From the NCBI GenBank assembly GCA_029060585.1, contig JAIDTS010000455.1:1-6209 (forward strand): a DNA stretch of 6,209 bases. Direction: 5' to 3'. The notes under the pieces were generated by a model. It made no database searches, was not told where the DNA came from, and saw only the letters and a list, made by a program, of their open reading frames with translations. Source of the DNA: Muribaculaceae bacterium (GTDB lineage Bacteria > Bacteroidota > Bacteroidia > Bacteroidales > Muribaculaceae). The translations under genes were made by a program, and so were the position numbers. Below, piece after piece: positions 527-6,209 of the stretch; position 1 is the first letter of the stretch; each line of letters begins with the position of its first letter.

Positions 527-2914
527 CTATGCATTTTTAGGATCAAACATATCCCAGTTGTCAAGATCGGTTGTGTTGTTTAAGGGTAATCTGCAATAAA
601 GCCATACGTCACTTCCCTCCGGCTTGTTAATGATAATGCCACCGTCAAGATTCTGGCCTTTGGCATTCTCTGCGGAGATATACTCGCGAAGTGCATTGTG
701 CTTTTCAGGAGCGAATACATCGCTGTTTCTGGTCTTTGTATCAAAGATATAGATTCTTCCTGATTTCATTCGTATTACGAAGTCTGGATAGAAAAGCGGT
801 ACGGATTCAATACCGTTAGGCTCATAGGGTATTGCATAATGAGTCTTCCCTTTGTCTCCGTTCTTATACCACCAGTCAATTTTATCTGAATGTTTTTCCA
901 GAAAGGCCACAAATCTCTCTTCAGGACCTGATGCTGATGTCAGTTCTACAAACGGTTCAAGGGCATGGTTCTCCACTTCTGATTTGACTGTATGTGTATC
1001 CGTGTCATAGACTCTTTCCTCGGGTATTTCCCAATTATAGGATGTCAGCATCCTACTGAGGTCTGGACGCGACTGCTGACGTTGCTTCATATAGCGGTCA
1101 AGGGCAAGTTCAAGCAGATGGTCGAATGTAGGTTTGTTTTCATGATAAAGCACTACTTTCTTCGCATCCGTATCAAATATGCTGAAGTAGTCTTCAAGAA
1201 TTCCGAGCAGATACCCTGCTATACGGTTTGTCCTGTCGCCCTGACGCGACTCGAACTGTCCCCCTTTAGTATTGATATAGGCAAGAAACACACGGTCTAT
1301 CTCACTGGCAGTTCTGGCGAATTTTGCCTGATCAAATTCAAGCACCTGCTCTTCATTCTGGAAATGAACGTCTTTAGGAATCTCGACATTGACGGTTTTT
1401 ACATCAAGTCTTAACAATTTCTGTACTTTCCTTCTGTTTTCATCTATTATTAGATCCCCTGTCTCCGGCAAAGACTGCGGTTTATCATCTTCTCCCCGCA
1501 AAGCAGCGAGTTCCGCGAGGCTGAACAGCATTCCCCCTTTCTCAAGTTTGAAAACTTCTTCCGCAGTCTTGTAAAGAACTTTCTTGAAGTCAGGGCCAAG
1601 ATAATTGCGCTTCATATTAGGTCGGGATGCGAAGACTGACGGAAGCGATACATTCGTCATAGACTCACGCCGAGTGGCCGTCACCGTATGGTTGAGGATA
1701 TAGCTTTGGTCGGCGGCCACGATTTTTATCTTGTCTTTAGCTATGTCGGTATATACATAGCCGATATTGAGGAGGTCGTTGGGGTAATGCTTCTGCTCGG
1801 GCATCCTGAGAATTCGTCCGACAGTCTGTATTGTAAACTGGTCGCTGCTGAGTTTTCGGAATATCAGGAGTACGGCAGCCCGCGGACAGTCCCAGCCCAG
1901 TGCGATGGCTTCCTTGAAGAGCAGTACCTTGGTCATATTGTCCGGTTTTTCAAGATTCTCCAAGTTTTCCTTCTCATTGGCGAGCCATACTGCCAGTTTA
2001 CCGTTTTCAACCGTAATCTCTTCCGTTGTATTGTATTTTAAGTATGTCTTGACGACTTCCGCTATTGTGTTGTCGTCTTCGGTCATAGTCTCCTTTGTGT
2101 CGTTAGGAAGCTGAACCAACAGAAGAGGCTTGATATTCGACCCAAGTCGCTCATATTCATCAGCAATCTGCTGTCGCTTGAGAAGAGCTGTTTTCAGGAG
2201 TCTCTCCTCAAGCGACAAAGGGTCGGCCGTATCCACATCTATGTCAGGATTCAGCACCACTTCCTTCTTTATCATTTCGGCATTGATTACATCACGGCGA
2301 TCCACAAGTACTTTTTGAGTAGTTCCGTTGATCGGAGTCTTGGGTGTTGCTGAGATTCGCAACTCGACGGCAGGATTTATCCGGTCGAGAACCTGTCCGG
2401 ATTTGTCCGCCGTTTTCGACCAGAACATATGTTCCTCGTCAATGATGGCGACTATTGGGATACCGAGCTCTTCCTGTGTGCGCTTTGTTATCTCATAGAG
2501 CGATGCAGAGCTTTCGCTGTCACGCACCATTATGTTTTTCTCCTTGTTGACACTTTCCCAGTTGACGAAAAGAATCTCTCCAGGTTGTATGCCCTCGCTC
2601 TGGTCGAGTTCGTCAAACATGACCGGGGATAGTTTCCTCGTCTCGCCAAACGCTCCTTTGAGGCTCAAATAGCTTTGGAGGTGGAGTTTTCGAGGGGCAA
2701 ACCATATAAAAGCGCATTCCTGGTATCTGGAATCTCCCCGCTGTTTCATTTCGTCTGCAATCGCGGCAAGTGTCTGACAAGCCATGACTGTTTTGCCGGC
2801 ACCTGTCGGGGCTTGAAACACAATCTTTCTGCGCTTTCCACCACTGTTAAGTGCCTTTATTGTCTTGTCTGTAAGTTCGGCTACCGCCTGCTGCTGGTAA
2901 TATAGGTTTTTCAT
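527..2914 (-). CDS. res: Type III restriction enzyme, Res (helicase-nuclease) subunit
   Basis: This 795-residue protein is the restriction subunit of a type III system. With Mod it uses ATP hydrolysis to communicate between recognition sites and cuts unmethylated foreign DNA in the cytoplasm. The N-terminal half is a superfamily 2 helicase: Walker A APTGAGKT (35-42), LFVNWES (115-121, typical of type III Res), motif II DEEH (159-162), motif III SAT (188-190), GWDCPRA (340-346) and motif VI QTVGRILRMPE (363-373). The C-terminal domain carries a PD-(D/E)xK-type site: PDFV from 710 and FDTK at 724-727, with E665/E666 as a possible further acidic ligand. Asp rather than Glu stands in the last motif, which the family tolerates. 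All key residues are present, so it appears active. The start overlaps the mod stop (ATGA) and has a strong ribosome binding site, implying translational coupling. It is somewhat short compared with well-studied Res proteins of roughly 900-1000 residues. Confidence 0.95.
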   Translation of the reverse strand: MKNLYYQQQAVAELTDKTIKALNSGGKRRKIVFQAPTGAGKTVMACQTLAAIADEMKQRGDSRYQECAFIWFAPRKLHLQSYLSLKGAFGETRKLSPVMFDELDQSEGIQPGEILFVNWESVNKEKNIMVRDSESSASLYEITKRTQEELGIPIVAIIDEEHMFWSKTADKSGQVLDRINPAVELRISATPKTPINGTTQKVLVDRRDVINAEMIKKEVVLNPDIDVDTADPLSLEERLLKTALLKRQQIADEYERLGSNIKPLLLVQLPNDTKETMTEDDNTIAEVVKTYLKYNTTEEITVENGKLAVWLANEKENLENLEKPDNMTKVLLFKEAIALGWDCPRAAVLLIFRKLSSDQFTIQTVGRILRMPEQKHYPNDLLNIGYVYTDIAKDKIKIVAADQSYILNHTVTATRRESMTNVSLPSVFASRPNMKRNYLGPDFKKVLYKTAEEVFKLEKGGMLFSLAELAALRGEDDKPQSLPETGDLIIDENRRKVQKLLRLDVKTVNVEIPKDVHFQNEEQVLEFDQAKFARTASEIDRVFLAYINTKGGQFESRQGDRTNRIAGYLLGILEDYFSIFDTDAKKVVLYHENKPTFDHLLELALDRYMKQRQQSRPDLSRMLTSYNWEIPEERVYDTDTHTVKSEVENHALEPFVELTSASGPEERFVAFLEKHSDKIDWWYKNGDKGKTHYAIPYEPNGIESVPLFYPDFVIRMKSGRIYIFDTKTRNSDVFAPEKHNALREYISAENAKGQNLDGGIIINKPEGSDVWLYCRLPLNNTTDLDNWDMFDPKNA

Positions 2915-4776
2915 TCCTCTCCTCCTTCCGCTGCGAAAAGACCTCCTAATTCCTCGTTATCTTCAATTGGATATTCATTTGTTCCCATTCCGGATTCGCG
3001 GACGACCGAACCGTGCGTCCCTACCGGTTTATCCTTAGGTTTCGGTAATACACGTTTATATGCATTGTATATCGCGGCGGGTAATGCCGTAGTCTCCACT
3101 TTATCTGCAACTGTTTCGAAAAGTTCTGATGCGGGGTCTTCGCTCGGAGAGAATACATATACCTTCATCGGGTTCTTGATATCCATTTTTTCAATGATAC
3201 CGACTATCTCTTCGATATATTCTTCCCTGTATATGATAAGCATCTGTTTTTTCCCGTCGTCGAAATACCGGAATATCTGAGGATGCGTTTTGACTTCACC
3301 CATACTTTTCTTCTCCATATAAAGGTTTTCCTTTATACATAGCATATCGGTTGAGAGATTTACCAGTCGCTGCATATTACGCATAGTCCGGCTTCTTCCG
3401 ACAAAATCAGTCTTATAATACCGCAGATTATTGTTATGTAGTCCTTCCACAAACTCACCGTTAGGTTTCGTATACCCCTCGATAACCCTCTTATTCCTCT
3501 CGTAAGTTATATTCTCGCAGATTCCGTTCTCGTTATTGGTGCAGAGAATGCACAGTCGCTTGCCACCGTCCTCGGCGTTAAGTTGCATAACGGCGTGGAG
3601 GGTTGTACCGGAACCTGCAAAGAAATCTAGATAGAGACTATCCTTATTACCACTCATTTGTAAAATAGTCCTTAATAAGTTTAATGGCTTCGGATAATCA
3701 AATTTTTTCTCTGAGAACAAATCCATTACCTCCTTTGTCCCTCTGGCAGAGCTTATTGCATCTTCAAGAATGAGGTTCTGATAAGGATGGCTTCGTTCTA
3801 TCGGATTGTTATTATTATCAACTTTCAAATATTGTTTGAAATAAATGACCCATTTCCCATTCTTTTTTGAAAAAAGTAAAAAGCCATTCTGTTTGCCCCA
3901 TTCAACTTTGGACTTAGACCAACGCCAATTCCAAAATGGTTGACTGAAAGTTTCTCCACCAGGGAATAAAATACTTCCATCGGGCATATCTATTCCGTAG
4001 TTTAATGCTTCAGAGTAATGGCTACCAGTCATGCGCCGATCAAGCTTATTTGTAATATATGGTCCACGAGTCTCAACAAACTCATCTAATAAAGTATATT
4101 TATCATAATTTTCTATTGGCTTAGAATTAATTGCCGCACTTTCTTTTTTTCGTGAAAATAAAAGTACATATTCAGTAACAGTCTTGATATCTGTTCCTGT
4201 ATTAGATCCCGGCGTGGACTGCCATAATAAATTAGAAAGAAAATTATTTTCTCCAAATATATCATCGAACAGCAACCGTAAGTTTGCAAATTCATTATCA
4301 TCAATAGAAATAAAGATAACTCCTCGGTCTGATAGGAGTTTCTTTGCAATACGTAGACGACGCGACATGAACGACAGCCACTTTGAATGTCGATAACTAT
4401 CATCAGTATCTACATATGAATCGTTATAGATAAAATCTTTGTTGCCCGTATTGTATGGGGGATCTATATAGATTACGTCGATTTTTCCGGCGTGGGTGTA
4501 TGCGAGGGTTGTTAGGGCTTCGAGGTTGTCCCCTTCTATAAGAATGTGATTGGGAGCGTTGGGTTCAGCTTCTGTCAATGCACGGTCTTTGACTTCTACG
4601 AGTACAGGAAGTTCATCTCGGAGTCGCTCTTCAATTGCTTCCGGTTTATCCTCCCAGACAAGTCCGTAAGTCTTGGTTTCGCGGAGAAGTCCGAGAAGTG
4701 CCGAGCGTTCATCATCAGTCAATCCATCTAAGGTTTTGATTCGGTCAATTAGTTTATGACGGTCAGTCGCTTTCAT
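2911..4776 (-). CDS. mod: Type III DNA methyltransferase, Mod subunit (N6-adenine)
   Basis: Mod recognises an asymmetric DNA site and methylates adenine N6 on one strand; it also supplies sequence specificity to Res. From the ATG at 4776 the protein has 621 residues. EGDNLEAL (81-88) precedes catalytic motif IV DPPYNTG (105-111). AdoMet-binding motif I FFAGSGTT (385-392) comes later, the motif order of beta-class enzymes. KPLNLL (363-368) fits motif X. The region between, about 177-357, should be the target recognition domain. It is clearly AT-richer than the flanks, suggesting the specificity module was exchanged. The frame stays open upstream to a TTG at 4845, but that codon lies in the T tract of the preceding terminator. 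The ATG at 4776 begins MKATDRHKLIDRIKTL, a normal Mod N terminus, so I prefer it. No ribosome binding site or clear promoter lies just upstream; transcription may come through the structured leader at 4844-5155. The target sequence cannot be read from the protein. Confidence 0.95.
   Translation of the reverse strand: MKATDRHKLIDRIKTLDGLTDDERSALLGLLRETKTYGLVWEDKPEAIEERLRDELPVLVEVKDRALTEAEPNAPNHILIEGDNLEALTTLAYTHAGKIDVIYIDPPYNTGNKDFIYNDSYVDTDDSYRHSKWLSFMSRRLRIAKKLLSDRGVIFISIDDNEFANLRLLFDDIFGENNFLSNLLWQSTPGSNTGTDIKTVTEYVLLFSRKKESAAINSKPIENYDKYTLLDEFVETRGPYITNKLDRRMTGSHYSEALNYGIDMPDGSILFPGGETFSQPFWNWRWSKSKVEWGKQNGFLLFSKKNGKWVIYFKQYLKVDNNNNPIERSHPYQNLILEDAISSARGTKEVMDLFSEKKFDYPKPLNLLRTILQMSGNKDSLYLDFFAGSGTTLHAVMQLNAEDGGKRLCILCTNNENGICENITYERNKRVIEGYTKPNGEFVEGLHNNNLRYYKTDFVGRSRTMRNMQRLVNLSTDMLCIKENLYMEKKSMGEVKTHPQIFRYFDDGKKQMLIIYREEYIEEIVGIIEKMDIKNPMKVYVFSPSEDPASELFETVADKVETTALPAAIYNAYKRVLPKPKDKPVGTHGSVVRESGMGTNEYPIEDNEELGGLFAAEGGEE
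2921..2927 (-). promoter_or_regulatory. Strong Shine-Dalgarno sequence for res
   Basis: The minus strand reads AAGGAGG within a longer purine run, 6 nt before the res ATG and inside the last codons of mod. This is a near-perfect anti-16S match, in contrast to the other starts in the window, which lack one. It supports the res start and suggests that res has its own initiation signal in addition to coupling through the ATGA overlap. Confidence 0.75.
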
Positions 4777-4843
4777 TACGAGAGCGACTTTAGAATGCCG
4801 CCCATTAGATTTGTCGCCAATACCCCACTGCGACCGAGTTAAC

Positions 4844-4963
4844 AAAAAAAGGAGTGGGTATCTGTACCGTTGCTCATTCGTACATCACGAGTGTCTGAAG
4901 TTCGTTACCAATGAATGAGTGTCACAGAGACCCACGCCTATGCAAATACCCCAAACCCACTCC
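4844..4963 (-). terminator. Intrinsic terminator of the structured RNA, with two rival stems
   Basis: The minus strand ends ACCCACTCC directly followed by TTTTTTT (4850-4844). The 3' arm has two possible partners. GTGGGTCTCTGT (4935-4924) pairs with ACAGATACCCAC (4865-4854), 12 positions with one mismatch. GGAGTGGGT (4963-4955) pairs perfectly over 9 bp with ACCCACTCC (4859-4851) and abuts the T tract. The two are mutually exclusive. Both lie upstream of mod, so either termination is constitutive with read-through, or the choice of pairing matters. Confidence 0.6.
4854..4950 (+). repeat. Structured repeat unit A (inverted relative to unit B)
   Basis: Read on the plus strand this is a compound hairpin. 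The outer stem is 4854-4865 with 4924-4935. The inner stem is CTCATTC (4873-4879) with GAATGAG (4913-4919). Next come GTA with TAC (4880-4882/4906-4908) and a 4-nt bulge CAAT. A distal stem ACGAG (4887-4891) with TTCGT (4901-4905) has its loop centred on TGTCTGAA. Blocks 4880-4887, 4890-4899 and 4905-4912 are identical to blocks in unit B on the other strand. Similarity continues more weakly through AGACCCACG to TATGCAAATACC. Confidence 0.7.
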
Positions 4964-4995
4964 ATGCCGATTAAGGCATAGAATGAGCCCGGATA

Positions 4996-5096
4996 GGTAT
5001 ATACATACCCGTGGGCGTCTATCACCACTTAATTCTTGATTGGTAAAAAGGTTTCAGACACTTTGATGTACCAAGAATAAAGCGCGAGTAAACGCC
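4996..5096 (-). repeat. Structured repeat unit B (inverted relative to unit A)
   Basis: Read on the minus strand it has the same layout as unit A. The outer stem is GGCGTTTA (5096-5089) with TAGACGCC (5021-5014). The inner stem is CTTTATTCTT (5082-5073) with AAGAATTAAG (5037-5028), one mismatch. Then come GGTA with TACC (5072-5069/5045-5042) and a 4-nt bulge AATC. The distal stem is AAAG with CTTT, with a TGTCTGAA loop. Stem sequences differ from unit A but pairing is kept, while the loop and bulge blocks are unchanged. The downstream end, TATGTATATACC, matches the end of unit A and can form its own GGTAT/ATACC hairpin (5009-4996). Confidence 0.7.
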
Positions 5097-5161
5097 TTTT
5101 ATTTTTATTTACCTCCCGCCTCGCTTCCTCTCTTGGAAGACCCACAGCGTGAGTCTATTTG

Positions 5162-5169
5162 CAAAGTTA
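5162..5169 (-). promoter_or_regulatory. Bacteroidota-type -7 box for the structured RNA
   Basis: The minus strand reads TAACTTTG, an exact match to the TAnnTTTG -7 consensus of the primary sigma factor in Bacteroidetes. The predicted start falls a few bases further, at about 5157-5155, exactly where the first hairpin begins. I see no good TTTG -33 box about 19 bp upstream; that stretch is a T-rich tract instead. One exact -7 match is not rare by chance, so its value comes from its placement. Confidence 0.5.
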
Positions 5170-5467: not shown

Positions 5468-5494
5468 GATGGATTTTTTGGGGAATTTCAGGGG
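5468..5494 (+). repeat. 27-bp direct repeat, left copy
   Basis: This copy starts GATGGA and ends GGGGAATTTCAGGGG. It matches the copy at 6183-6209 over the full 27 bp apart from one inserted A and one missing G. It lies upstream of the promoter of the 5612-6088 gene. A second, weaker echo (GGGGATTTC) follows directly at 5492-5500. Confidence 0.7.
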
Positions 5495-5611: not shown

Positions 5612-6088
5612 ATGAGATTGAAAGAAACACCTTCCAGAAAGCCATCCGGAACGAAACGGAGTCTTTTTAAGATTGTTATCGTTGTCGGCATAGCCATCAT
5701 TCTATTTTCCTTAGCCCTCGTCTTGATGATGCGTGGATGTGATGGCAACGAGTCTGAACCATATTCTGAAGAAATTATTGCCATTCCATACGTCGTCGAT
5801 TCAATCGAAGATATATCAATGGATTCTTCACTTGATTATCAACATTCTATTGATTTGGAGAGCGAAAGTCAATTAAAAGATGGTCAGGACAAAACTTATT
5901 CAGGAGAAGCAGATAACGGATCGCAGAGTTCTACATCAAAGAAGAAACCTATAGATCCAAGATTTCAGAATCCTGATGGCACATATAAGCAACCATGGGA
6001 ATATGCAAAATATTTTGACGACGATGAAAGCGATGATTACGAAGAGGGGTATGAAGAGGGCTACGAAGATGCGCTGGATGAACTTTGA
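5612..6088 (+). CDS. Acidic single-pass membrane protein of unknown function
   Basis: The 158-residue protein starts with a short basic tail (MRLKETPSRKPSGTKR), followed by a hydrophobic segment at about residues 18-40. This predicts a single membrane anchor with the tail in the cytoplasm and the rest outside the inner membrane. A cysteine follows (C43 in MMRGCDG), but the arginine before it and its distance from the start argue against a lipoprotein signal. Residues 44-110 are acidic, Ser-rich and probably disordered. PIDPRFQNPDGTYKQPWEYA (113-132) is the most folded-looking part. The end is very acidic, with three tandem units YEEG-YEEG-YEDA at 143-154. I do not recognise the family. The start is fixed by an in-frame stop just upstream and by the promoter 30 bp away; no Shine-Dalgarno sequence is present. 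It is divergent from the restriction operon and separated from it by a long gap, so a functional link is not implied. Confidence 0.8.
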   Translation: MRLKETPSRKPSGTKRSLFKIVIVVGIAIILFSLALVLMMRGCDGNESEPYSEEIIAIPYVVDSIEDISMDSSLDYQHSIDLESESQLKDGQDKTYSGEADNGSQSSTSKKKPIDPRFQNPDGTYKQPWEYAKYFDDDESDDYEEGYEEGYEDALDEL

Positions 6089-6182: not shown

Positions 6183-6209
6183 GATGGAATTTTTTGGGAA
6201 TTTCAGGGG
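6183..6209 (+). repeat. 27-bp direct repeat, right copy, at the window edge
   Basis: This copy starts GATGGAA and ends GGGAATTTCAGGGG at the last base of the window, so it may continue. With 5468-5494 it brackets the 5612-6088 gene and its promoter. The left copy sits about 80 bp upstream of a -33 box, so a second promoter and gene of the same kind may follow beyond the window. Confidence 0.7.

Follow-up and report, generated by a model that had tools for sequence, protein, structure and literature searches.

Upstream of a type III restriction-modification operon in a Muribaculaceae genome, a member of a common gut family, we found a leader in which two hairpins of one RNA are predicted to dock through three short pairings, whose letters vary among relatives while their fit is kept. 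Judged from sequence, this leader appears to be new and is probably a gene-controlling switch. The stretch of DNA analysed (6,209 nt, hereafter the window) carries the leader on the minus strand, directly upstream of mod-res, from about 4844 to 5169; a sequence-only reading had originally given the feature as 4854..5096.

That reading described two convergent copies of one structured unit, unit A on the plus strand and unit B on the minus strand, with conserved loops and changing stems. The three shared blocks, GTACATCA, AGTGTCTGAA and TTACCAAT, proved exact, with 26 shared bases in the same order over a span of 33 nt on both strands (4880-4912 on the plus strand, 5039-5071 on the minus strand). 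Their gapped pattern occurs at just two places in the window, against 0.00 expected in 200 shuffles, so the identity is not due to chance. The flanking stems pair as described, and the folds of unit A on the plus strand (-34.3 kcal/mol, z -3.8) and of unit B on the minus strand (-27.6 kcal/mol, z -4.6) were below all 200 shuffles. The 4-nt bulge claimed for the same place in both units is present in the predicted fold of A and has no counterpart there in B. Reading A on the plus strand did not hold up either, as its minus-strand fold is nearly as good (-31.2 kcal/mol, z -3.6). The promoter, the T-run, the strand preferred by a covariance model of the core (102.6 against 32.3 bits) and the homologues all indicate that A and B belong to one and the same minus-strand transcript. 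The blocks, called X, Y and Z in B and X', Y' and Z' in A, agree between the units because, within this single transcript, each set is the reverse complement of its counterpart. Two separate units on opposite strands were therefore ruled out, since one minus-strand transcript accounts for both.

The pattern is carried by other genomes, as the sequence-only reading had anticipated; homologues were found by pattern scan, blastn and covariance model. A scan of 84,980 genomes for the X/Y/Z pattern gave one further copy, L001, in a Muribaculaceae MAG and likewise before mod-res; the genome of L001 holds two more, divergent copies ahead of other genes. Window and L001 are 92-100% identical per 100 columns over 4844-5141 and mostly 75-94% over mod/res, falling to 36-67% in the Mod specificity region, and their loops are one base apart. 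In mod itself (3581-4343, minus strand), the low-identity central part between better-kept flanks looks like a target-recognition exchange with the leader loops unchanged. With blastn (E <= 0.001), matches were found in 32 of 198 Muribaculaceae genomes. The covariance model R1, built from 17 rows of the 90-nt core, matched (E <= 0.01) 99 of 397 family genomes and 9 of 393 order-level genomes, counts in which many low scorers may be chance and some come from the strand opposite a good match; strict filters were used in both searches. Three of the nine order-level matches exceeded 80 bits and were shared with the family sample; a fourth reached 45 bits. The extent of the family given here is that seen in genome samples. 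From the best places 74 stretches were taken, and rescoring of 76 sources gave 77 entries including the window. We left out L083, L092, L133 and L135 (short flanks) and L091 (runs of N), and L137, L138 and L140, which fail the X/Y/Z test, stand outside the 69 leaders analysed below. Alignment A4 comprises 54 of 64 non-redundant leaders; L112, L116, L117, L111b, L121, L123, L125, L126, L129 and L141 were left out by eye for unusual segment lengths.

Among 20 mod upstream regions without an R1 match in the family search, six (L156, L161, L164, L168, L171 and L173) carry X/Y/Z in a leader whose core is divergent. Their X/Y/Z scores are 19.4 to 25.0, and since the highest shuffle value displayed is 21.0, L161 and L171 rest also on family likeness. 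R1 gave 19.2 bits for L161, 19.1 for L164 and 37.2 for L173. Two of these leaders before mod, L156 and L168, have a much shorter core with X/Y/Z intact and no clear T-run. At L024 (G075; also L174), wing 1, the hairpin that corresponds to unit B, is fused almost directly to the mod start, and the core, wing 2 and T-run are missing; in such a natural deletion mod should be unregulated. At L111, tandem leaders with different X/Y/Z lie 1.7 kb apart (696-785 and 2395-2482), the second before mod-res.

The predicted transcript would start just past the promoter box and run through a 5' segment, wing 1, the core, wing 2 and the T-run before reaching the gene; all parts that follow lie on the minus strand of the window. 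The promoter -7 box TAACTTTG (5162..5169) fits TAnnTTTG, the Bacteroidetes consensus for this box. In 67 of 69 homologues such a box precedes the core by 110-220 nt, compared with 2-4 of 62-68 in five control windows. It is followed by a 5' leader segment, GACTCACGC...GGCGGGAGG, which was delimited by alignment and is partly self-complementary (5111..5155). Its part GACTCACG may pair alternatively with the 3' closing strand of the core; complementarity to that strand was 27.0 for own and 24.6 for cross combinations (n=62; permutation p 0.0005, against p 0.83 for a control region), weak evidence because the permutation ignores kinship. Wing 1 (5021..5097) is a covarying hairpin with an outer stem, a short inner stem and exposed X (GTACATCA, 5064..5071), Y (AGTGTCTGAA, 5053..5062, the apical loop) and Z (TTACCAAT, 5039..5046). 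The conserved core rod (4931..5019) covaries and scores 102.6 bits with R1 on the minus strand and 32.3 on the plus strand, the window itself being one of R1's 17 rows. Wing 2 (4851..4939), unit A read on the minus strand, is a covarying hairpin with Z' (ATTGGTAA, 4905..4912), Y' (TTCAGACACT, 4890..4899, again the apical loop) and X' (TGATGTAC, 4880..4887), complementary to Z, Y and X, respectively. It is followed by a T-run (4844..4850), a presumed intrinsic terminator; 59 of 69 homologues have a T-run at +70..+128 relative to the core, against 1-11 of 65-68 in the five control windows.

Between the T-run and mod lies one more hairpin, GTCGC-AGTGGGGTATTG-GCGAC (4813..4834), in which GGGGTATT echoes the core's GGGGTATTTGC. 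Sixteen of the 69 leaders, including 13 that precede mod, have GGGGTATT at +80..+160 relative to the core, and this hairpin could be an autoregulation site. The type III DNA methyltransferase gene mod (2911..4776; PF01555 E 8.6e-36; PADLOC MTase_III E 3.3e-102) starts with the ATG at 4774-4776, 155 nt past the core, as a 621-aa frame at +155, and is followed by the restriction helicase gene res (527..2914; PF04851 E 2.3e-14; PADLOC REase_III E 6e-15). Elsewhere in the window, a plus-strand gene (5612-6088) encodes a protein of 158 aa that has no Pfam match at E <= 0.001. Inspection by eye suggests a single membrane stretch and an acidic tail in this protein, and shows a short repeat, TTTTTTGGG(G)AATTTCAGGGG, on both sides of the gene (5474-5494 and 6190-6209).

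The loops, thought conserved from the window, turned out to be the most variable parts across homologues. Where cores were 90-95% identical (78 pairs), mean X/Y/Z identity was 0.52 and that of the stretch just before X was 0.87, with 0.35 as the random 8-mer baseline. All 16 same-genome leader pairs compared differed in X/Y/Z (identity <= 0.52), and 30 to 40 distinct loop sets were counted among 69 copies. The fit between the wings is nevertheless kept. A three-segment score averaged 22.0 for own wings and was at least 16 in 69 of 72. For all 5112 foreign wing pairs, 41% had no such chain, the mean was 7.5 (12.7 without zeros) and 197 (3.9%) reached 16. The own wing was the best partner in 59 of 72 by this score and in only 35 of 73 by a plain alignment score (own 19.2, foreign 10.05). 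In the 54 aligned leaders, 85.4% of X/Y/Z cells were paired versus 54.1 when shuffled and 30-40 when slid, a figure that ignores kinship and is biased upward because the columns were derived from the tested sequences; the own-versus-foreign comparison is free of this bias. Compensated cells numbered 451 versus 165.6 shuffled, and the covariation score was 0.735 versus 0.220 shuffled and 0.09-0.13 slid. In the same leaders, there was no excess of pairs changed on both sides (24 versus 23.4 shuffled) or of further pair types (71 versus 71.1). Relatedness among sequences is not controlled in any of the shuffles.

Hypervariable loops within a conserved scaffold, and first genes of defence type in 28 + 11 of 69 leaders, would also suit guides, X/Y/Z and X'/Y'/Z' recognising the two strands of one DNA target in the manner of a bridge RNA, or sensing phage nucleic acid. 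We consider such guides very improbable. Four X-Y-Z sets had no exact gapped match in IMG/VR, and the window's set matched, in the 84,980 genomes, just the leader of L001 itself. Moreover, the loops do not track the Mod specificity region, which differs from L001 far more than the loops do, and no gene family is common to all loci.

The claim of a selected fold was borne out, since the stems covary. In wing 1, 86.7% of stem cells were paired versus 81.6 shuffled, with both-side changes in 14 of 19 pairs versus 9.0. The 26 pairs of wing 2 had 78.0% of cells paired versus 73.1 and 88 compensated cells versus 35.1, with no clear excess of both-side changes (15 versus 12.9 shuffled). In the core, 34 pairs had 90.8% of cells paired versus 84.5, and 22 of them changed on both sides versus 11.1. 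For each of the three, percent paired, the number of compensated cells and the covariation score were higher than in any of 500 shuffles, kinship being ignored. In local folds, the probability of being unpaired was 0.82 for Y and 0.78 for Y', 0.42-0.57 for X, Z, X' and Z', and 0.15 and 0.17 for the outer stems. For 66 of 69 leaders, the finished RNA is predicted to take X/Y/Z into a single long rod that encloses the core; the joined fold is on average 13.4 kcal/mol lower than the sum of the local folds (range 4.2 to 21.9).

Two models could describe how wing 1 and wing 2 would dock via X-X', Y-Y' and Z-Z'. In one, the wings would swap their pairing between rod and hairpins; with the joined fold that much lower for the finished RNA, a switch could be balanced only through co-transcriptional timing. 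In the other, the wings would interlock while staying hairpins, a paranemic arrangement that the energy model cannot score. In the alignment, X/Y/Z and both wing stems occupy almost separate columns, and this use of different nucleotides leans towards interlocking. As a possible though doubtful extension, the leader may be a natural paranemic switch, in which two stable hairpins interlock via three 8-bp helices without unfolding, the interlock chooses between core closure and terminator, and the letters diversify as lock and key, giving each accessory or defence gene in a cell its own non-interfering switch.

The sequence holds an upstream promoter box, a hairpin with a T-run before the gene and a mutually exclusive helix. 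The closing helix of the core folds in 69 of 69 leaders, and its 3' strand is reused by the wing-2 hairpin near the T-run in 61 of 62, the strand CGTGGG being common to the closing helix and the base of wing 2. This strand would form either the core helix or the wing-2 terminator hairpin, mutually exclusive states. A change in alignment column 204 is matched in each of the two alternative partners: A stands with U on the core side in 11 rows and on the wing-2 side in 8 rows (kinship ignored). In 53 of 69 leaders, an open frame that is at least 100 aa long or reaches the contig end begins at +90..+200 (median +138); the other 16 of 69 have no such frame there. Promoter, T-run, gene distance and shared strand together are, on this predicted fold, the layout of an attenuator. 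A simple terminator scanner did not list the wing-2 terminator because it allows just small loops (3-8 nt). By the rule used, 10 of 69 leaders have no T-run, and the divergent L156, L168 and L171, which keep X/Y/Z, also have no clear one, so termination is perhaps not the general output.

These three leaders, all before mod, and the extra hairpin at 4813-4834 would suit a leader that acts on translation or mRNA stability, the joined wings governing access to the mod start or attack by RNase and the T-run being secondary. We hold this to be unlikely, as the T-run has a nearly fixed place in 59 of 69 leaders and the core and terminator pairings exclude each other. Somewhat less unlikely, although still improbable, is a free-standing structured RNA acting in trans, for instance one that binds protein or forms oligomers with X/Y/Z joining two molecules, terminated before a gene that is a mere neighbour or partner. 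Its own promoter box and T-run would fit, hypervariable yet self-complementary segments would allow homotypic assembly, and the 16 same-genome pairs all differ in X/Y/Z. The nearly fixed distance to the frame start in 53 of 69 leaders speaks against it. A second promoter box beyond the T-run, ahead of the gene, is rare as well (1 of 68), which would leave the gene itself with no recognisable promoter.

With inverted repeats separated by about 120 nt, and with two or three copies in some genomes, the leader recalls an invertible promoter or the end of a transposon or MITE. This origin is highly implausible: the copies stand at an almost constant distance ahead of gene starts, most differ from one another in their loop letters, the repeats are split into three ~8-nt blocks by non-complementary spacers, and the box at 5162-5169 lies outside the repeats (4880-5071). 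Phage and plasmid records gave no match, nor did a core pattern match in IMG/VR, and such a record was thus rejected as a known source. A leader peptide in the core was ruled out by 1-nt gaps in its frame among homologues. Known Rfam RNAs were ruled out for the window and the loci scanned: with Rfam 15, the window, L003 and L004 gave no family at gathering score even at a permissive E (in the window, just two sub-threshold snoRNA chance matches), and six further loci at gathering threshold gave only a distant 5S rRNA in L084.

Counting only frames of 110 aa or more, the first gene downstream of the 69 leaders is mod in 28, HKD+SNF2 helicase (PADLOC C3a139) in 11 and another gene in 20; 10 of 69 have no such frame within 700 nt, some of them at contig ends. 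Among the other first or following genes, part of whose proteins was scanned, were DUF6079, kinase-Ppx, acyltransferase, DUF4391 and caspase, as well as BspA-like repeats, fimbrillin-like and tubulin-like proteins. GmrSD and SbcD/SbcC adjoin L138 and L137, leaders that fail the X/Y/Z test. Because the first genes are diverse and many are of defence type, the leader seems to belong to accessory genes as a module, with defence genes well represented among them. An R1 match was found upstream of 27 of 72 mod loci (matched by hand); because both searches score part of the candidates, further matches may have been missed. On this count we rejected the idea that the type III enzyme requires the RNA, which appears to be an add-on regulator. 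We know of no description of leader-RNA control of defence genes in the Muribaculaceae.

With terminator/antiterminator leaders of the riboswitch or attenuator type, this leader shares the promoter, the structured 5' region, a helix whose formation precludes a terminator-like hairpin, and the gene directly downstream. It differs in that its two hairpins, which flank a rod-like core, would be joined by three hypervariable pairings, and in serving diverse accessory genes rather than one pathway, with no ligand known. Purine riboswitches also have two hairpins docked through loops; there the contact is a small loop-loop one, whereas here ~22-25 bp in three blocks have hypervariable letters. In the antisense systems FinP/traJ, CopA/CopT and RNAI/RNAII, complementary hairpin loops have diverged in their letters and relatives do not cross-react; here both partners lie in one transcript. 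Among the literature matches listed, with subscription papers and preprints outside the scope, none dealt with a leader of type III mod or of defence genes from Bacteroidales. RNA paranemic crossovers are presented as designed motifs in PMC10376919 and PMC11667664, which cite Afonin, Cieply and Leontis 2008 for them. As presented there, inter-hairpin helices alternate with short intra-hairpin helices on separate nucleotides, as they would here; theirs are designed, whereas the predicted pairings here are natural, in a putative three-dimensional arrangement.

If the interlock coexists with the hairpins, the leader would be a natural form of a motif that these two papers present as designed RNA, and if interlocking is true, it would be more than a variant of leader attenuators. 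The 30 to 40 loop sets are a ready natural mutational data set, and the core is conserved enough for a signal hunt. For the Muribaculaceae, these results point to a recurrent predicted RNA switch ahead of restriction-modification, helicase and surface-protein genes.
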